NCBI RefSeq assembly: GCF_003473485.1
Contig: NC_053045.1
Coordinates: 31,346,494-31,410,493 of the forward strand
Source of the DNA: Medicago truncatula
Taxonomy: Eukaryota > Streptophyta > Magnoliopsida > Fabales > Fabaceae
Direction: 5' to 3'
Length of the DNA stretch: 64,000 nt
Positions 5,435 through 19,110 of the stretch are shown here, piece by piece. Both the position numbers and the translations under genes were made by a program. Position 1 is the stretch's first letter; each line of letters begins with the position of its first letter. The notes below the pieces were generated by a model, which worked only from the letters and a program-made list of their open reading frames with translations, was not told where the DNA came from and searched no databases.

Positions 5435-5527
5435 ATCTTTGTGAGCTTAGCTCAGTTAGTTTGAATAATGCATAAAAATATGCAATGTTTGGGTTCAAAC
5501 CCCGACCACCACAAAAAAAAAAAAAAA
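5435..5527 (+). mobile_element. tRNA-derived SINE with A tail and target duplication
   Basis: The body has a polymerase III box A (TAGCTCAGTTAG, 5448-5459) and box B (GGTTCAAACC, 5492-5501), then an A-rich tail. The flanking repeat AAAAACCCTTATTA occurs at 5421-5434 and again at 5523-5536, overlapping the tail. It is related to the copies at 37025 and 58737. Confidence 0.8.
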
Positions 5528-5604
5528 CCCTTATTATATAATAAAAATTGAAGAGCTGTGGAAATAAAATGAAAAATTGAAACTATCTTGAAAAATTCTA
5601 CATG

Positions 5605-5821
5605 TGTTATAAATATTAATAGTGGATGTCCAAATAGCAAATGTGTTAGTGGACCATACTACTAGTTTATTGAGCTTAGTTCATAAGCTACTCTATTTCC
5701 CTATAAATAGAGCTCATTTGTAACATTGATAGACAGATAAGTGAATAAGAATACTGTTCCTATTCTCACTTCTTCTCCTTCTCTCTATTATTATCATCTC
5801 AATTTACTTGTATTCATAACA
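5605..5821 (+). repeat. 5' LTR of copia element
   Basis: It begins TGTTATAAAT and ends TTCATAACA, the TG...CA form expected of an LTR. It contains a TATA-like CCCTATAAATAGAG near 5700 and a pyrimidine-rich segment before the end. Confidence 0.95.
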
Positions 5822-6189
5822 CGTTATTAATATAATCTATTTAACTGATTCGTGGTTTGTATGCTATTCAACGTGATCGCATAGAATTATTAAAATTGGT
5901 TTCTTTGTTTTCTCTTGGCATTCGATTATGATATTCATGGTATCTATGTGCCCTGTTTAATTGTTCTTATGAATTCATATATGTTTGTGTTTTTGAATCC
6001 GTAGTAAATAATTTATTATGAAGGTACATGACTCTTCTTTATCAATAATATATAGATATATGCTTAATTTTGTATCGATGATTTTAGGTCACTGTTACAA
6101 TTCCATCAATTGGAATCAGGACCTAATAGATACACATCATTGTTATTTTACAAATTATACAGTGTTTATTTATTTTAATTCAACATACA

Positions 6190-7279
6190 TGCATCCTTGA
6201 AGGACCGCTTCAAAGTAAATAAAGCAACTCTAATGAATTCTTGAAGAATTCAATCCTAATGCATCCCGGAAGGTTTGCACATACAAAATTTTCTTAATGA
6301 ATTCCTGAAGAATTCAACATTAGTATTAATGAATCCCTGAAGGATTGCACATACAAAATTTTCTTCATGAATTCCTGAAAAATTCAACACTATACTAATG
6401 CATCTTTGAAAGATTGCACATACAAATTAAATTTTTTTTTAATGAATTCATGAAGAATTCAATACTAGTGCATCTCTGAAGGATCAGTTAAAAATCATTT
6501 TTTTATTTTATTTTATGAATTCTTGATGAATTCAACGTTGATTAATCTCTAAAGGATGGGGCAGATGATTTATCAAACTTAGTATATAGTTCTTATAGAA
6601 CTCAAATATTTAATAAATATACATCCCTGAAGGATTGCAAAAGTATTGCGTAAAAGATTGATCACATGTATAATATATTTCTCGAACAACTATATTCAAA
6701 AAGGAACGCATCCCCAAAGAATTGCTTAAAAATTCAACTTTATTTTCTGTGAATTCCGGAAGAATTCAAATTTGTTGCATCCATGGAGGATTTCTTAGAG
6801 AATTGATTTTATATTTTAAGTTGGTTACATGGTTCCTGGAGAACTTAAAAATATTGATTTTATTATCTGTGTTTTCCTGAAGAATTTGGTACTGATTAGA
6901 TCAATTATTTAGTTCTTGTATAACTTACAAAAATAATTTTTTTTCTCCATGAATCCTTAAAGAATTCAGTACTGAAGGATCCTAAATCCTTTTTCCATGA
7001 ATTCTTGAAAACTTGTGATGAATCCCTAAATGATTACACAATAAATGATTGATTGTGAACAGAAATTGGATTTTTATCTATGAATTCCATAAGAATTCAA
7101 TAGCAATGCATCTATGTTGAATAGTTCATGAATAACTTCAAAACTCGGTTTATATAAATTCTTGAAGAATTTGGTGATGATACATACTAAAGTATCATAT
7201 GGTTATATAGTTCTTGAAGGATTCCACGTAATTGGTTTGATCGTAAATAATATTAGCCTTGAATTCTTGAAGAATTCAA
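6190..7279 (+). repeat. Hairpin array in the copia leader region
   Basis: From 6234 to 6534 two hairpin types alternate. Type 1 is TGAATTC-CTGAA-GAATTCA, starting at 6234, 6298, 6368, 6443 and 6516. Type 2 is TGCATCC-CTGAA-GGATTGCA, starting at 6260, 6330, 6399 and 6469. Each type recurs about every 70 bp. Scattered copies continue to 7279 (for example 6750-6768 and 7259-7279). Several differ by paired changes that keep the stem. The region has no reading frame and lies where an untranslated leader upstream of gag would be expected. Confidence 0.85.
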
Positions 7280-8757
7280 TACAATATTAAGACCAAATAT
7301 CAGTTGGTTTGGACTTGAATCTAAATATGATAATTGGTTTATTCTCAACAAATCTCTCATTAAAATGATCAGCACATGGTTCATAAGGTTTGAATCAAAT
7401 ACATACATATTTCTAAAATATGTACGATATTATTTTACTTTTAAACTGCAGTATTGGATCCTGCTTCATCATTGAATTTACTGTTATTTAATGAGATTAA
7501 TTTTTGAATATTATGATTATGTTTTTAGAGAAACATTATGATTCATTATTGCCTTCAATTACCATGAGTTTAATTTGATTAAATGACATGTTTGGCCGAA
7601 GATGAATACAAAAGGAAATACATTTTTCTAAGGAAAATCTGTTATTTTAGAATAACTATGATTAACTTAATGCTATATTTTGATTGTATCTTAAGTCTTT
7701 TTAATGTGTTAAAAGAATTTTGAAAGGATGTGTTAGACAATTTTGTTTTATTTTGAAAACTGTAAGTTATTTTTCGCTAAAATTATGGATTCAGTTTGGC
7801 ACGTCAGTGTATATCTAAAAAGTGGTTGTTTCCTTAATCTTGGTAGCTAATTTTTTTTGCATAACAAATCTGATTTTTTTTTATATTGATGTATAAATTT
7901 GATTGTATGTTTCCGAATAACTACACATATACATCCATGAATATATGAGTTCTTGAAGAACTATACATTTAGATCTTCATAAAAGTTTAAAAGATCTATT
8001 TGATCTTCGCATTGATGCGGAAAAAAAAGGAAAAGAGAAAGAAAAAAAAAGACAATATGTTAATTTAAACACCACTCAAATATGCTCCTGAAGTAGCACA
8101 ATTGAGAAAACATCTTCAAGAATATTTATGAAATATTAGTTACATTTATAATTAAGAAAAGAGTGGTTATTGATTAAAATAGTGAAAGATCACATGCTAT
8201 TTGTTTTATATAACCAACATTGTGGTTATGGTAGTTGATTTATTAGATATTACTATTGATATGTTATATGTCAAAGTCATAAAGTTCTGCTAGTATGATG
8301 AACTTAGACGAGTTTAAAATTTAGTATTTGATCAAAAATATATATTTTTTCATATTTGACCAAGAATTTTCTACGAGGTAATGTTTTAAACTCCTTTCTT
8401 TTAGAATATTTGATTATGATTTTATTCTTTCTTATTCCACAAGATTATAATCTCATAAATATTATATGGAAGATATGCATACTTTCTTATGAAATAAACT
8501 TATTTTGATTTTGATCTTACAGATAATATAAATTTTGAAGATGGCAAACTTTGAAAATATATCTCATTGAAAATATGTGTTGCCTAACTACTCACTTGAT
8601 GTTTATCCTTTTTTTTTTTTTTTTTTTTTTCTATCTATGGTAATGTAAAAGATAAATCAAGGCTTTAGAATATTTATTATACAGATTCACTTGGATACAT
8701 TATTTTCTTGTTCATTGTTGTTTTCAAATAGATTAGAACAAATGAATCATATGTTAT

Positions 8758-9988
8758 TGTAAATCAGAAATTTACAAATCATGTTTTAAATGCTCATTCT
8801 TGAGTGTATCAAACAACCCCGAAAGGGTTGCTCAAATAATGATTTATCTCGATCATTTTTGATATTGTTCCCGAAGAACTGCATGACTAATGAAGGCTCC
8901 TGAAGAGCATTTGTACTGTTAAAAGGAACAAAATTACACATTGATGTTGCATTCTAATATAATTTTATTGAGTTTTAAGATGTCCATCTAAATGGATATC
9001 ATATTGAAAAAAATATATGGTAAATATCTCTATATTACGAGATATGCTATGGAGAAAATAAGTGTTGTGGAAAAGTTTATTTTTCTCTCATTTGTACTAC
9101 ACTAATATTAGTGCAATGATAACACATATTATTGTAAACCAGAAGTTTACATATTATATTAAGTTTGTTGTTGGCAAGACCGGTTGTGTTATCCCAGATT
9201 CATTATGATGAGAAAATAGTTAATTTTAATGGATTTGTGTTGAAGAGGCATAAGATTCTTCAATCAAATAAGTATAAGGTGATATTAGTTCAATCAAAAT
9301 AGTTAATTTCATTATGATGTAGAAAATTTGAAGATTTTAGTTTCTCAATATATGTAAATGTGTATAAGGTGATATTTTTGAATCAATACACAGAAAATAT
9401 GGATCAACTAAATGACATGTATGGTTATTGTTAACTCACAAACCAGAAGTTTGTGAGATTATTATGTCAACGAATTTGACAAAGAATTTATTTTCTGAAT
9501 TTTTCAAAAAGCATTTGATAAGTATCATTTGTCAATTGAAACTGATATTGAATAGCTGCTAGCATATGCTTAAAAAATGGACTTGAATATTCATTCTTTA
9601 GACGTCTAAAGTATATTGTATGATTGATACTTATGAAACCATACATAATAAACTCTACTTTGGAAATCAACAATCATGAATGTTGATATATTGATCCGCA
9701 TCAAGCCAACAAGTTACCATATGTAAGTCGTCCCCTTATAATTTATTTTAGGTTAACAACTTAATATTTCTTGTCTAAGTAAATTTTTGGATGTGTTGTG
9801 TCTATTACAATTGCTCCAATATAATGCACTTAGATAGATCTTGAAAGAATATTGGGAAAATCTATTTGATATAAATCCTCATCTATTATAAATTGTATTG
9901 AGCCAACTTGTACAGCCTAGTAGGCTGATTAGTTTTCCCAATATTAGGGGGAGAGAATAAGCAGCTGAAAATGTGAACCTGAAGTTCA
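8758..9988 (+). repeat. Further short hairpins with NNGAA loops inside the copia element
   Basis: Stem arms TGTAAAT/ATTTACA flank loop CAGAA at 8758-8776. Arms TGTAAAC/GTTTACA flank the same loop at 9133-9151, and 9-bp arms CTCACAAAC/GTTTGTGAG flank it at 9435-9457. Arms CAACCC/GGGTTG flank CGAAA at 8814-8830. Arms GCTC/GAGC flank CTGAA at 8896-8908, and TGAAC/GTTCA flank CTGAA at 9974-9988. Loops are similar while stems differ. Confidence 0.75.
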
Positions 9989-11730
9989 AATGAATTATTT
10001 GAAAGAAAATATTATTGTCTCATCTTGATCCTCAAAATATAACTCGTTTGCAAAGTTAAACAAATAAAATAAGCAGCTGCTAATGCTCCAATCGAAATAG
10101 ATGTCCCTGTCGATTATTGCAAATGAGTCTCAACTGCGCATGAAGCGTGGTAGACCAATCAGTTCCACATATAAAATCCTCAAACAATAAAAGGAGCTAA
10201 AAATAAAGATAACCCAAATAAGGATGTGTAAACTCTAAAAGAGTCATCTGACATATTTGATTTTAAGTTCCAGAAGAACCGACTAGGTACCTGAGATGTA
10301 TGAAAAATAAAGAGATCTCGATAAATTATGTCATGAATGGAATGAGGTGGAACAAAATTTAAAGTCAACGTTGACGATGTTTTTGCTTATAACATAGCGC
10401 TATATGTGATGAGTGTTAACGAGGATCATGGATTAAAACATGAAATCAAACTCGCTTTATAAAGTCGAACTTTTTGGACTTGTGGTCCTCACACTTGAAG
10501 ATGTGAAGTTAATTAGATATATAAGATTTTTCGCGCGAAAGAGAATTACATTGATAAAATACATATGTAAAGAGTTTGATATGTTCACCGGAAGTGAGCT
10601 GATATATGTCTAACGTTTATGTTTAAGAGACATATTTACCTGAAGTGAATTCAAGAACTTTTTCTTGTTTGATTAAGTTTAGTATTACATGAAAGGCTCA
10701 ATTTATATGAAAGATGTGTTGCAATATAGTTGTATGACTCACGTGATAATGATGAGTATATGAAACTCTCTGATAAAATTAATTTTTGTGAGATATTGAA
10801 GAAATGACATCATATGTCCATTTTAAATCTTTGAAAATAAATTTGTTATAATCATTTTAATGATGATGGTATAAATATTATTGAACTCCTGAAGAGATTC
10901 TAACATCTATTGATTATAGAAATATTTGAAATTAAATATGTTGCATGCACAAAGTTTGTTTGGATTTGCAGATTTATTATTTAAACGAGATTTCATGCAT
11001 CAAGAAACTTATATAACAAATGTATTTGATATGGACATATCTAGTTGACTGTGTACTATAATGATTGTGATGTCACTTGATATTAGTATAAATCATGTCC
11101 TCAAGAAAATGATAAACAGCTTGAATTGATCCTGAAGTACCATATCTTAGTTCAAACGAGGACATCAATGTATTTTGTTAATGATATTTATTGTGGTATT
11201 TTGGTTTGCCAATGTTAGTAAATACAGATATCAGAATAAAGTCAAACATATATTTTGTATCTTAAAGAAGCAACATAATTAAGGAAGTGAAGAACGCTCT
11301 TTTATCAAGGATGATGATTTTACAAGTACAAGAAACTTGTTGATTTCTTAATAGGGGTCTTACAACAACTCAATATAAAGAAACTTCTCAAGCACTACTA
11401 ATTTGAAGAAGACTATGAAGATAAACCAGATATTTCAACAAAGTCGCTGCAAGTAAACTTTTGAGTAACTAGAACAAATATTATTTGACTTTCTTCGTCT
11501 CATAGATGATTGTCTTTATGAGGGGGAGACATAAATGTGTTATGCACTCTTTTTCCCTTAACCATGGTTTTGTCCCATTGGGTTTTCCTGGTAAGGTTTT
11601 TAACGAGGCAGATTATCATACACAAAAGGGATATTGTACTCTTTTTCCTTCACTAGAATTTTTCTCCTATTAGGTTTTTCTCTAGTAAGGTTTTAATGAG
11701 GCATATCCTCAATGGACATCTAAGGGGGAG

Positions 11731-11947
11731 TGTTATAAATATTAATAGTGGATGTCCAAATAGCAAATGTGTTAGTGGGCCATACTACTAGTTTATTGGG
11801 CTTAGTTCATAAGTTACTCTACTTCCCTATAAATAGAACTCATTTGTAACATTGATAGACAGATCAGCGAATACGAATACTGTTCCTATTCTCTCTTCTT
11901 CTCCTTCTCTCTATTATTATCCTCTCAATTTACTTGTATTCATAACA
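11731..11947 (+). repeat. 3' LTR of copia element
   Basis: It is the same length as the 5' LTR and differs at 10 positions by direct comparison. It is preceded by the polypurine tract and followed by ACATG, the right-hand target duplication. Confidence 0.95.
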
Positions 11948-12180
11948 ACATGTTAATTATTAAGTCATTATTACATGAATCCAACGAAAAAAGAGTCCCG
12001 TAACAAACAATGAACAAAATAATTTCTTTTTTCCTTCTAAATAATAATTTCCTTTTAAAAAAATCGATAAAATGTAACGTATGAATTTCAATTAAATGGA
12101 TTTAAGCTGTATACATTAAACAACACATGTATGACTTCTATTTAATGAACAATTTCTAACCGTGGGAAAATGAGTTTGCG

Positions 12181-12991: not shown

Positions 12992-13437
12992 GCTCTCAGA
13001 GAAACTTTTGCTATTCAATAAGCTGAGAAACTTTTGCTAAAAAAAAAGGCTTATTAGATTGTTTGGTCCCTTATTTAATTTCATGTTTTTATTTTGGTCC
13101 CACATTTAATAAAAATGGCATTTTGGTCCCTCACCTTTTCCTCCGTTTGCCAAATAAATCCCAACCGTTAAGTTTAATAAAAATGATGTTTATGGTGGAT
13201 CATCTTTAAGAGTGGTACACCATAGGTCCTATTAATTATTTTAATTTCGACCGTTTGATTTAAAAAAAAAAAAGAGAACCATTGAATTAAGCAGGTCTAT
13301 TTTATCTTACGATGTACCACCAACACCTAATTTTTTCTTTTCTTCATCTTCTATATTTTTCATCTTCATCAATCATATTCATACAAACATACTCAGAAAA
13401 ATAATGTGTAAAAAATAACCCAGAAAAATAAATTAAA

Positions 13438-13665
13438 GGCTTAATACATGCTTTGGTCCCTTAATTTATTTTTGAATTTCATTTTGGTCCCTTAACTTTA
13501 AACCGTCTCAATTTGGTCCCATAACTTTACCTCCGTTTACCTAAGTGTCCCTTCTGTTAAAAAAACTAACAGAAGGGACCACTTAGGTAAACGGAGGTAA
13601 AGTTATGGGACCAAACTGAGACGGTTTAAAGTTAAGGGACCAAAATGAAATTCAAAAATAAGTTA
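13438..13665. mobile_element. Foldback MITE copy 1 (right end truncated)
   Basis: An almost perfect palindrome: the left arm runs from GGCTTAATACATGC through repeated 'ggtccc' motifs to the CTTCTGTTA centre, and the right arm returns with AACAGAAGGGACCA. The final arm matching the left end is missing, so this copy is truncated. Confidence 0.8.
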
Positions 13666-13884
13666 ATATACCTTCCAATATATATATTTTTTTTTTACAT
13701 TTGACTCATTAGAAAAAAAGTGTTATAGTATAATATACCATTCGATTTTGAAGAAAGAAGTAGTGGTAATTTGAAGTTCGATTAATAGGTAGGAAAGTCT
13801 GATCAATAATTATTCTACTCAATAATTAAATTTAGATTCTTATTATATAGATTTTGGAATATATTTCTTTTGTATATGTTAATT

Positions 13885-13886
<2 letters not shown>

Positions 13887-13953
<67 letters not shown>
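13887..13953. repeat. (TTA)n microsatellite, about 22 units
   Basis: An uninterrupted ATT/TTA trinucleotide run of 67 bp lies between the two foldback MITEs. Confidence 0.98.
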
Positions 13954-13957
<4 letters not shown>

Positions 13958-14032
13958 TAAATTTTGTTTTTAATTGAAATTATTTTGATTTAGATTAAAA
14001 TTATTGGTATAGATATTAAAATTATTTTTATT

Positions 14033-14287
14033 AGGCTTAATACATGCTTTGGTCCCTCAACTTATTTTTGAATTTCATTTTGATCCCTTAACTTTAAACC
14101 GTCTAAATTTGGTCCCATAACTTTACCTCCGTTTACCTAAGTGGTCCATTCTGTTAGTTTTTTTAACAGAAGGGACGACTTAGGTAAACGGAGGTAAAGT
14201 TATGGGACCAAATTGAGACGGTTTAAAGTTAAGGGACCAAAATGAAATTCAAAAATAAGTTAAGGGACCAAAGCATGTATTAAACCT
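14033..14287. mobile_element. Foldback MITE copy 2 (complete)
   Basis: The same family as the copy at 13438 but with both ends: AGGCTTAATACATGC at the left and GCATGTATTAAACCT at the right. Almost the whole 255 bp pairs with itself. No convincing 9-bp duplication was seen. Confidence 0.82.
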
Positions 14288-15274
14288 AAATTAAAACAAG
14301 AAACCAGAAAAAAGAAAAATATCATCATCAACACTATAATCATCCTTTCTCTCTAAAAAAAAAAGTTGCCCAGAACAACATCAACAATGTATCGTTTAAA
14401 AACAAATCTAATTCTCTATTTTCCTCTTTGCATCAACAGAACAAGATCAACATCTATTTTCCTCTTTCCTTCTCTTCTCTTCCCAAACCCATAAACACAG
14501 ATCTATGCAGAACGAACTGGCAGCTGACAGTGATGGATCTGTGGTGGTTCAAGGTCGCACGCGGTGGGAACAATGGGTTTAACGGCGGCGATGGGTTGAA
14601 CGGCGGTGACATGAACGACGACGACATGAACGGCGGTGATGGTTTTTTAGCCGCGGTGACACTTTTTCCCCTTCCTGCTTCATGAATCACATGCTTTTCA
14701 TGTGGTTCTTGGATTATGTTTTTTTAGTTTGAGAACAGATGGAGATGATGATGATGATGAGAATGGATGGATTTTGGTTTGATTTTGTGTTTGTTGATGT
14801 TGTACGAATTATTTGATATGAGAAGAGATTAATCTGAATTTGTTTGGATTTCTTGTTGTTTGTTGTTGAACCTGTGTTGATTGTTGTTGCTATGCTTTCC
14901 CCAAATTTTTCTTTGTTGTTGCTCGTTGGAGAAGAACATGAAAAGAAATTGGAATTTTTAATTTGGCATTATGGGTATTTTAGGTATTTCACTTATTTAC
15001 CATTATTTTATGAAGATCATGAATAAGAAGGTGAAGATCTAATGGTCCATTTTATGATAAATATATCGAATGGTTAAAATTAACAAAATTAATAAGGTCT
15101 ACAATAGACCACTTTTAAGGTTGATCCACCATAGATATTTAGAGTTAAAGTTAATACTTGGGATTTAATTGGCAAACGGAGAAAAAGATGACGGACCAAA
15201 ACGCCATTTTTATTAAATGTGGGACCAAAATGAAAATATGAAATTAAATAAGGGACCAAACGATCTAATAAGCC

Positions 15275-16892
15275 AAAGAAAAAAAGATGAGAAACTTTTG
15301 AAAAAAGTATATTATAGATAATAAAGATTTGAGAGATCATTGGAAGTTTTTCTAGAGTGTCACATAATCACAAAGCTTGTATGAGAATAACTCAATTTTC
15401 CTTTACAAAAATAGAAAGATAGATATGTTATTAAGTGTATCAATTTCACAAATAATAAGTCAATTTGTTGATCATCTCATCCAACAAATTAATTTTATAT
15501 TTGTATCTTTCCTTTTCTTCACTTTTGTTTTTTCAATTATTTTTCGCTCTCGATACACATAATCTTGAAAAACGATTTTTAAGTCTTCAGATAAATTCAA
15601 TATATGTAAAACTCATGACTATCATCAAATAATATATATTTAAGGGTGCATTTTCTAAAAGCAAAATTTTGTGTATAAAGAAACAATAATTAAACCTTTA
15701 AAAATTGAATGCAAATTTAGGAACACATTATGTTGGAAAAGTTTTTTGTGTTGTTCTTGTTGACAAATTATATTGGAGAAGTTTGATACTTTGATTTAAA
15801 ACTTTCATTTTTCAACTGGTATATGACCCACATCTTTATACGCGTGATTATATATATAAAAATCCAGGCTTGAATTCACTAGAAGTATGAGTGATGATAC
15901 ACGTACCATCCCATGTGGCAATATATCCTTTACACCCACATAAAATTCTGACATGTGGCAACCTGGACCCCACATAAATAGAAGATAAAGTGTGGTTGTG
16001 ACATGAACTTACAAAAATATCCCTAATACATAGGATGTACAATGGGATGTAGGAATAAAGAGTGTTCATGTAACATTTATACCCAAAGGTTCACACATGA
16101 AAAGCAATATTAGGTTTCAATTCAAAGTAGAAGTAACTAAATATCACATCATTGAATAATAATACACGGATTTACATAGCTAATGTCTTAATATTTTGGA
16201 TGAATGTATGATATCTTTATATCTTATGATATTTCTAATCCGTTGTTTCTCCTGTGACCCCGACTCTCCAACAACCTAATTCATTTTAAAAATGAATGAG
16301 ATAATAAAGGCTATTTTAATGCAATCAGATAAAGGTTGGCAAAGAAAAACCTCATATCGTGGTGCAATGGTGTCTTTCATTTTGCATTAATTCCCACCGG
16401 AGCTAGCTAGGTAAGAGTCTATGTGCAGTTGAATACATATACGTATTGAACTTATTTGTCATAATGTGCTGTCTTCACTCCGTTTGATTTCAATGAATGA
16501 ATATGAGTATTATCTATGCACATATATATAAGAGGAAAACAAAAATCACAAACAAGGAACCATGTTCATTTATTGGATCATGCATGAAAGGAGAGAAACA
16601 TTAATTAAGAAGGCAATGTTTGACACATCTACAAGGGATTTGAATTTGTAAATATTGACACCAACACACTGTACATGAATTAAATTATTTTTGTTCGTTG
16701 ACATGAAAGATTAAGTTAACCAGTAAAGTAAATTCGTGTACAATTATTTTACACATGTATCTAATAAATGTGTTTTTTTTTAAGGATGTATCTAATAATG
16801 TGTTATCACGTCAATTAATTATTATGAAAACATATATAGTTGTCATATTTATTAATTGATATACTAACACATCATTGAATTGAATGTATGTA
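15275..16892. other. Intergenic, no gene seen
   Basis: AT-rich DNA without coding signature. Short CCACAT/ATGTGG motifs occur near 15900-15980, but I assign no element. Confidence 0.5.
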
Positions 16893-16901
16893 TAAAATAA
16901 T

Positions 16902-17279
16902 GGTTTAAATGTGTCATTGGTCCCTGCACTTTCATCAGATTTTGGCATTGGTCCCTGCACTTTTTTTGTTTGACATTGGTCCCTGCACTTTGTAAAAATA
17001 TTGGTATTGATCCCTCTGTTAACTTTCTGTTAAAAAAAAAACAAAAAACCAACGGAGTGCCACGTGGCCCAATCATTTCACGCCACGTGGCACTAATATC
17101 AATATTTTTACAAAGTGCAGGACCAATACCAATAGTTTTGTGTTTTTTTAATAGAAAGTTAATAGAGGGATCAATACCAATATTTTTACAAAGTGCAGGG
17201 ACCAATTCCAAATAAAAAAAGTGTAGGGACTAATGCCAAAATCTGATGAAAGTGAAAGGACTAAAGACATATTTAAACC
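16902..17279. mobile_element. Mutator-like foldback MITE with 9-bp target duplication
   Basis: The ends GGTTTAAAT and ATTTAAACC are inverted, and internal 'ggtccctgcactt' arms pair with 'aagtgcagggacc' arms. The flanks carry a perfect 9-bp duplication, TAAAATAAT (16893-16901 and 17280-17288), which points to Mutator-type insertion. The loop holds two G-boxes within a 12-bp perfect inverted repeat. Confidence 0.88.
17056..17094. promoter_or_regulatory. Paired G-box motifs inside the MITE loop
   Basis: AGTGCCACGTGG (17056-17067) and its exact inverse CCACGTGGCACT (17083-17094) each contain CACGTG, the core bound by plant bZIP and bHLH factors. They lie 2 kb upstream of the NaKR-like gene. A regulatory effect is only inferred. 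Confidence 0.35.
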
Positions 17280-17288
17280 TAAAATAAT

Positions 17289-19110
17289 TATACATACAAA
17301 TCCTACTAATTAATTAGATTTGTTGATGTATTTATGCAGTAATCAATCCTCTAGAAAAACTGCTTTTACTAAATTCCTGCGGCTAAATTAAAAAATCTCC
17401 AACTTTTATCTTTGTTGAAACTTTTGCGTATTGCTCAACCGACCTTTTACCCATTATTCGTCCTCTCTCTCATCAAGCATTCCCCAAGTGTTTCAAGGTT
17501 CAAAGGGATAACTATTTTTATTTATAAAACAACGTCAACAACTTAAAAACATAGCGTGTACCATGAAAACTTTAGTCATGACTTCATTGTTCAAGTTTTC
17601 TTTTTCTTTTGAAATGTCAAACAAGTGAACCTATTGAATTTAATGAAATGTTGTTACACATCATCATGTTGTATATATGTCGTTTAGTTGTCTTCTTTTT
17701 TGTAAATTCCAAAATTTGATCTTAAACGTGTCTTCCCAAGTTTGTTGGTTGAAAATGAACCAAAACATGACTTGTTAATTTATAGTCTCATATCCACAGC
17801 GCACCCGGCCACAAATTTGCATCCAAAACATGAAAAGTAATAGGAATACAATTAACAAAATGAAATGTGGAGCCTAGTGTTTTGTGGAAAATATAGGCCT
17901 CTAAGAAAAACAATGATGCACCAATAATAGAAGTCGGTAGTCTTCCCTAAACTTTTGTTAATTCCACAACTAGTGGTAGTAATCATATCACAGCAAAGAC
18001 TAGCTAGCACACTTTCTAATTCCTAAACAACTAAAAAAACATAATAATGAGTAAAAAGTTATGCTAAAATATTCTTTTGCTCCTTCAAATTCATCTTTTA
18101 TTCGAAATTCATTTTAGTTTTTTATGTTTTAAGAAATTTTAACATAAGAAAATATACGGTGTATCACAAGTCTGATGTCTACACTTTAAAATCATGAATC
18201 ATAATTTTAATTAGAGATTTTTTGAAAAGATGACACTCATTTTAGTGAGTTTAGAAGAATATTTTGACATGTTACTAACTATGAAGGCAAGTGTGATATA
18301 TATTCCACGACTAGTTCAATCTAAGATAAATATAATTTTTTTTTTTTTTTATCAAGTGGTCAAGCGACTAGATTCACATACATTATATGTGAAAAAAAAT
18401 GATAAATCTGTGGTTCAAACCCCGACCCTGCACATAATATCTTTAGTAGGTACCAACTGAATTACATTTATGAGATTGATAAGTACAAATTTAAGATAGA
18501 TGAATTTGTATATGATTGGTGTTATTTTAGTATAAAAAGTGACATTGTACATCAACATCTATAAAAATACAACACTATGAAATTGTTAAAGAGAAAAAAA
18601 AAAGTAGTGTAAAAATACCATATAACAACAAGTATACAAGAATAACATTTTTATTCCTTAAAAAAAGTACAACATTTTAATTGTTCACATAACAATTTTT
18701 TTCATATAAAGTTGCCAAGATAAACAACTAAAATGAATATTCTAAAAAATCAAGGAGAAAATTGAATTTTGAGCAATATATACAAAGGATACAAATGATA
18801 CTTTAGGCAAAGAAATAAGGATCAAAGAGAAAATACAATTGCCATAAAAAAAAGAAGAGAAAATACAACTTTGAATATCGAGATTAATCCCAAATCTTCC
18901 AAGACATCATTACAGTGGGACCTAATAATGCATTATCTCTTCTTTTTCCCTCCCTCAATATTAGAAAGATCTTTCAATTACACTCCCTTTAGCCTTCATT
19001 ACATTCAGCTACTACTACTTAAAAAGCCATTGCTTCCAACAATAACTCATTCTCTCAATATCTACAAACCAAACAAATCAATCAACTTAACTTCAATTCA
19101 ACTTATATCC
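17289..19110. other. Upstream flank of NaKR-like gene, with one SINE-like fragment
   Basis: AT-rich with no gene seen. At about 18343-18450 a tRNA-like segment (AGTGGTCAAGCGACTAG as box A, GTGGTTCAAACCCC as box B) resembles a degenerate SINE. The last 240 bp before the ATG is open in frame with the gene but lacks the family's sequence, so I take it as leader. Confidence 0.4.

Follow-up and report, generated by a model that had tools for sequence, protein, structure and literature searches.

Sense-strand hairpins with a common NNGAA loop are dispersed across a Medicago truncatula Ty1/copia lineage and suggest selection on its RNA

We analysed a 64,000-nucleotide stretch of Medicago truncatula contig NC_053045.1 (positions 31,346,494 to 31,410,493; hereafter the window), in which a decayed Ty1/copia retrotransposon at 5605-11947 carries an array of short hairpins with a common five-base NNGAA loop and stems that differ from site to site. 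On the sequence comparisons made here, selection on the hairpins at the RNA level, as the original prediction had proposed with Gag or a host factor as possible binders, is well supported. This support comes from strand bias, from a synonymous-codon test in two coding elements, from hairpin positions that are conserved, with some stems compensated, between elements from two sources, and from the lack of the signal in five other copia elements of this genome. The hairpins may be cis-acting sites on the sense RNA for a protein, most likely Gag, in the manner of dispersed packaging signals, a proposal to which we give an even chance.

Between 6190 and 9990, 19 perfect hairpins with a five-base loop and a stem of at least 6 base pairs (bp) were detected, compared with a mean of 2.9 (maximum 8) in 100 dinucleotide shuffles. 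At the same stem length, there was no excess for loops of 4, 6 and 8 bases, but there was one for loops of 3 (10 vs 2.6) and 7 bases (12 vs 2.9), probably in part owing to the self-palindromic GAATTC stem. The array is real, but the 'dozens' first claimed for this region were 16 hairpins with stems of at least 4 bp plus three with 3 bp. Likewise, GAA does stand out among the loops, but 'nearly always' was an overstatement: NNGAA accounted for only 16 of the 61 five-base-loop hairpins with stems of at least 4 bp and 9/19 of those with at least 6 bp, and the CGAAA loop, also listed, is present only once (8814). Rather than ending at 9990, the array continues to ~10896 (Table 1). Trinucleotide rates showed that the five-base-loop excess belongs to loops ending in GAA, which among loop 3' trinucleotides had the highest rate in three of the five elements tested and came second in L010 and L028, where the trinucleotide above it rests on one site each. 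Within the element interior, stems of at least 4 bp occurred at 20/173 NNGAA sites compared with 63/5,724 of all other sites (Fisher test treating sites as independent, P = 1e−13). Over the whole element, all 20 NNGAA hairpins with such stems were on the + strand and none on the − strand; the remaining 57.6 kilobases (kb) of the window held five and seven, respectively.

The array was also present in relatives across the genome. The 17-base leader hairpin GAATTCNTGAAGAATTC occurred 216 times and TGTAAACCAGAAGTTTACA 72 times, with no occurrence of either backward control. Of the NNGAA hairpins in twenty loci, taken from the first matches of the leader hairpin pattern, 281 lay on the strand of the element and 25 on the opposite one. 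Seventeen elements, the window's plus those at 16 of the twenty loci, had clean pairs of long terminal repeats (LTRs); L026, L015 and L012 were left out for unclear repeat pairing (the pair detected in L012 is not the element's own) and L011 lacked an LTR pair. Their interiors (93 kb) held 248 sense and 9 antisense NNGAA hairpins, their LTRs (7.9 kb) none on either strand, and their flanks (66 kb) five and six. As backgrounds we used the flanks of the elements, the remainder of the window and stretches taken from other copia elements. The number of NNGAA hairpins per element ranged from 8 to 23. Pooled counts over 19 elements gave an excess at every loop length and hence no discrimination, because the copies are redundant, and were replaced by distinct, per-element and per-group counts; L026 was left out of the pooled loop counts and the homologous-group counts. 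Among 200 distinct five-base-loop hairpins (stem at least 5 bp, 19 elements), the commonest loops were CTGAA (14), CAGAA (8), TTGAA (7) and ATGAA (5). The stems varied, the four inner stem bases taking 15 forms in 44 groups with at least three copies. Constraint nevertheless reached beyond the loop, as the closing pair was C-G in 81 of 93 homologous groups. In each of the five elements examined, NNGAA hairpins had a higher median predicted pairing than hairpins with other five-base loops. L018 and L028 have LTRs that are 100% identical and longest frames of no more than 107 and 84 amino acids, respectively, indicating that non-coding members moved recently. Several matches to the reverse transcriptase (RT) piece of L017 (97–99%) lacked stops, indicating that coding relatives exist.

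These counts bear on whether a transcription factor binds the hairpins as double-stranded DNA, heat-shock elements with the motif TTCNNGAA being one such case. Stems ending in TTC do yield this motif and make up 19 of the 44 multi-copy groups; however, other stems make up the remaining 25 and all ten hairpins of the related element L044 (below), and the LTRs, the expected place of a promoter, hold none. With 25/44 groups free of TTC stems and none in LTRs, we rejected this and other DNA-site explanations as very improbable.

The coding frames of two elements provided a stricter comparison. L017, whose LTRs are identical, has gag (with a zinc knuckle), integrase and RT frames, with the domains gag_pre-integrs, rve (31.7 bits, just under the 32.6 cut-off) and RVT_2 in that order. 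Six coding hairpins had stems of at least 4 bp, including those in codons for HQKW, IVNQKFT, PRMKRG and IPEGF. This number of GAA-loop hairpins compared with a mean of 1.15 in synonymous-codon shuffles, none of 400 being as high, and other five-base loops were near chance (24 vs 26.3). A scan of bacterial genome contigs revealed two loci encoding relatives, L044 (74% RT identity) and L045 (~61%). L044 was found by its RT, not picked by its hairpins, and was tested after the hypothesis had been formed. Its two frames held eight GAA-loop hairpins (mean of shuffles 1.07, 0/400 as high) and 23 with other five-base loops (20.2 in shuffles). The long frame alone gave 7 vs 0.78; the short gag-side frame gave 1 vs 0.18, meaningless by itself, and frame 630-977, left out because it overlaps another frame, gave 1 vs 0.06 alone. 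All ten NNGAA hairpins of L044 were sense and none antisense. The assemblies holding L044 and L045 were a Solirubrobacter genome and a Trichormus metagenome-assembled genome, the second of which contains 25 RT matches. Both loci are most likely plant contamination.

Chance or protein-coding constraint alone was rejected and has a negligible probability: some coding hairpins do lie on conserved peptides, e.g. IPEGF, but synonymous-codon shuffles retain the protein and the excess vanishes in them. A functionless mutation bias, in which RT snap-back turns imperfect palindromes into perfect ones that then spread by duplication, is more probable than this and still improbable. It would suit the leader hairpins that sit in repeated units, as well as a within-family covariation no higher than chance (below). 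Yet snap-back does not predict a single loop, and only GAA loops were clearly in excess in the coding frames; this limitation, together with the C-G closing pair, led us to reject it as the sole explanation.

Hairpin positions were conserved between L017 and L044. In a codon alignment (stem at least 4 bp), 4/6 L017 hairpins were kept in L044 compared with 20/126 other hairpins (P = 0.010), and the reverse comparison (4/8 vs 20/137, P = 0.026) returned the same four sites. Two of the four showed compensated stem changes. At L017 site 3402, both elements have a CAGAA loop and the stem changes from AAAC/GTTT to GAGC/GCTC; at site 2499, TCCAC/GTGGA in L017 is ACCAC/GTGGT in L044, one T-A pair having become A-T. 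Similarly, at site 4571 the L017 stem CCACGC/GCGTGG corresponds to TCATGC/GCATGA in the non-coding L010, two C-G pairs having become T-A. Among 18 relatives (18/19 targets, as L011 gave no aligned site and L017 and L027 were not targets), whose copies are not independent, 49/61 leader NNGAA hairpins of L017 were kept compared with 159/364 other hairpins. Beyond the leader, defined as beyond L017 position 1700 and thus including some non-coding sequence, the figures were 22/41 and 97/556.

Changed pairs became G-U more often than A-C (27 vs 13), which fits pairing in the sense RNA; misregistered variants (more than 8 differences) were dropped from this count and from the covariation count. The excess of G-U favours the sense strand, if modestly, over use of the hairpins by single-stranded complementary DNA (cDNA), e.g. 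in pacing reverse transcription or in strand transfer. Complementarity works on either strand and every replicating copy would need cDNA synthesis, but we consider such a role improbable, only slightly less so than snap-back.

A constrained loop on a free but paired stem suggests a reader that recognises both the fold of the RNA and its loop. We propose that a short stem of unconstrained sequence, with C-G as the usual closing pair, would display the NNGAA loop on the sense RNA, where a protein would recognise loop and closing pair (C-NN-GAA-G) and the stem need only be paired. Sites over the leader and coding region would act jointly. The most likely reader would be the lineage's Gag, which would select full-length RNA and pack it into virus-like particles. 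Retention in gene-less derivatives, two of them with identical LTRs, suggests that each site acts for the very RNA in which it lies; such derivatives may keep the array because they are packed by the Gag of another copy. In its widest form, to which we give slightly less than an even chance, the proposal is that the lineage uses a genome-wide dispersed C-NNGAA-G code, also within gag-pol codons, for Gag-guided packaging, and that non-coding parasites retain this code for packaging in trans. That RNA and not cDNA is the active strand, that the reader is a protein, that this protein is Gag and that packaging is the step served are each inferred.

The suspicion that the pattern may be lineage-wide was supported. 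Stretches of 5.3 kb from five copia elements outside the lineage (L039-L043; 40–43% RT identity), all of this genome, had four sense and five antisense NNGAA hairpins, no element exceeding its own codon shuffles, and the additional copia loci L048-L053, six in number and from G001/G002, had two over both strands combined. L045 had no NNGAA hairpin with a stem of at least 4 bp on either strand and, at a stem of at least 3 bp, three sense and none antisense. L037 and L038, which are more distantly related, had only 4/1 and 2/1, and no relatives were found in the viral contigs searched. Restriction to one lineage points to a reader encoded by the element. A host RNA-binding protein, acting in export, stability, translation or silencing escape, would be equally compatible with all of the sequence evidence, and coverage of leader and genes suits a role over the whole transcript; the lack of an array in L045 and the five other copia elements of this genome fits an element-encoded partner better. 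We regard a host reader as less likely than Gag, though clearly more plausible than a cDNA role.

Several observations weigh against a selected array read by Gag. Within the family, double changes (four compensated and one other) did not exceed the 5.64 expected by independence, alongside single changes that broke a pair (58) or made it G-U (36); family copies probably record mostly decay after insertion, but the covariation check must still count as failed. Site 4404 is lost in L044, the IPEGF hairpin is lost in L010, and several copies have the loop G changed to T (CATAA). Beyond the leader, L028 keeps 0/2 hairpins and L012 0/3. The absence from L045 of hairpins with stems of at least 4 bp indicates that such elements manage without the array. 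Predicted pair probability was 0.5 or lower in 10/20, 5/13, 4/13, 5/14 and 2/10 hairpins of five elements. Two elements underlie the coding test, and the hairpin-picked loci each hold at least one NNGAA hairpin by choice, which makes the leader counts a biased sample; the strand bias, the remaining stems and L044 are independent of this choice.

The recognition hairpins of Smaug/Vts1 have CNGG loops; here too a short loop on a free stem would be read, with different loop letters. Large retrotransposon derivatives (LARDs) are large non-autonomous LTR elements with a non-coding interior of several kb. The present family resembles them in such an interior and in apparent mobility without genes of its own, and differs in its visible decayed pol remnants and coding relatives. 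In RNA viruses and hepatitis B virus, dispersed stem-loops (RGAG loop in the latter) are described as presenting a motif to the coat protein (PMC7612645). The likeness, here by sequence only, lies in many stem-loops with a common short loop along one genome; coat-protein binding is shown there and inferred here, and the present case concerns an LTR retrotransposon, with an NNGAA loop and a C-G closing pair. For Ty1, the packaging and dimerisation region is described as a 5' pseudoknot with kissing loops (PMC8396678; PMC5454406), likewise a cis-acting RNA structure but a 5' one, in contrast to a dispersed array with one loop. Sireviruses are described as carrying lineage-specific, multi-copy symmetric motifs in non-coding regions (PMC2829016). 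These resemble the NNGAA hairpins in being lineage-specific, multi-copy and symmetric in plant copia elements, but have CGG-CCG cores located in LTRs and near env, whereas NNGAA hairpins occur in coding sequence and, over the 7.9 kb examined, in no LTR. No description of such hairpins was found among the titles and abstract openings returned by searches of open-licence literature. Because the RNA motif can be counted and is overrepresented in coding as well as non-coding copies, it becomes testable how plant LTR retrotransposons choose their own RNA and carry gene-less derivatives, and the motif could act as a sequence signature that pairs non-autonomous families with their helpers.

The copy in the window is a Ty1/copia derivative without coding capacity. 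It has LTRs of 217 bp each with TG...CA ends, a 5-bp target duplication and a polypurine tract, and contains no overlapping open frame longer than 70 amino acids. A tblastn search with the L017 frames covered 95 integrase and 121 RT-frame residues, integrase upstream of RT in the Ty1/copia order also seen in L017; the gag frame found no remnant. The polypurine sequence AAGGGGGAG adjoins the 3' LTR in 16/19 fetched loci with a repeat pair. The LTR/primer-site junction ATAACACGTTATCAGCACG is present in 14/21 sequences, as is the CGTTATCAGCACG core, which the window copy lacks and which we take to match transfer RNA (tRNA)-Ile. A primer site complementary to half of tRNA-Ile is described for the Bianca lineage (PMC6317226), one of the lineages described in legumes (PMC10373317); the primer site tentatively suggests membership of this lineage.

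Table 1 Hairpins and structural features of the window element (stem-loop-stem; positions are those of the window)
Feature	Position	Strand	Remarks
Target-site duplication ACATG, left	5600..5604	.	repeated directly after 3' LTR
5' LTR TGTTATAAAT...TTCATAACA	5605..5821	+	direct repeat, 95.4% identity with 3' LTR
Primer-binding-site region	5822..5840	+	CGTTATTAAT here, mutated; CGTTATCAGCACG in relatives
TCC-TTGAA-GGA	6194..6204	+	hairpin, 3 bp
TGAATTC-TTGAA-GAATTCA	6234..6252	+	hairpin
TGAATTC-CTGAA-GAATTCA	6298..6316	+	hairpin
AATCC-CTGAA-GGATT	6332..6346	+	hairpin
ATCT-TTGAA-AGAT	6402..6414	+	hairpin; ATCC...GGAT in relatives
TGAATTC-ATGAA-GAATTCA	6443..6461	+	hairpin
ATCC-CTGAA-GGAT	6623..6635	+	hairpin
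TGAATTC-CGGAA-GAATTCA	6750..6768	+	hairpin
TTC-CTGAA-GAA	6874..6884	+	hairpin, 3 bp
AAATTC-TTGAA-GAATTT	7156..7172	+	hairpin
TTGAATTC-TTGAA-GAATTCAA	7259..7279	+	hairpin
AGTTC-TTGAA-GAACT	7948..7962	+	hairpin
TTGTAAAT-CAGAA-ATTTACAA	8757..8777	+	hairpin; TTGTAAAC...GTTTACAA in relatives
GTTC-CCGAA-GAAC	8867..8879	+	hairpin
Decayed pol remnants, tblastn span	8892..10429	+	integrase pieces 8892-9172, RT-frame piece 10076-10429
GCTC-CTGAA-GAGC	8896..8908	+	hairpin; same place as L017 coding hairpin
TGTAAAC-CAGAA-GTTTACA	9133..9151	+	hairpin; place codes IVNQKFT in L017
CTCACAAAC-CAGAA-GTTTGTGAG	9435..9457	+	hairpin
ATT-GGGAA-AAT	9851..9861	+	weak 3-bp match; closing pair not C-G; doubtful member
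TGAAC-CTGAA-GTTCA	9974..9988	+	hairpin; same stem at homologous place in L010, L017
CGC-ATGAA-GCG	10137..10147	+	hairpin; G-U pairs extend stem; CCACGC/GCGTGG in L017
GTTC-CAGAA-GAAC	10267..10279	+	hairpin
AAAG-TCGAA-CTTT	10461..10473	+	closing pair G-C; doubtful member
TCAC-CGGAA-GTGA	10585..10597	+	hairpin
TGAA-GTGAA-TTCA	10641..10653	+	closing pair A-T, overlaps CTGAA site; doubtful member
CTC-CTGAA-GAG	10886..10896	+	hairpin, 3 bp
Polypurine tract TAAGGGGGAG	11721..11730	+	read in sequence; counterpart in relatives AAGGGGGAG
3' LTR	11731..11947	+	direct-repeat partner of 5' LTR
Target-site duplication ACATG, right	11948..11952	.	matches left copy

The segments around the CAGAA hairpins at 8757, 9133 and 9435 are alike although their stems differ, and by eye look like duplications of the IVNQKFT-coding segment of L017. 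An Rfam search of 5500-12100 returned no match up to E = 1, and ARAGORN detected no tRNA gene anywhere in the window. The stretch at ~5440-5528, which closely precedes the element, has a tRNA-like head, A-/B-box-like sequence and a poly-A tail, and looks like a tRNA-derived short interspersed nuclear element. Further downstream, 13047-17289 contains dispersed diverged repeats, several of which have a common GGGACCAAAATGAAA unit.

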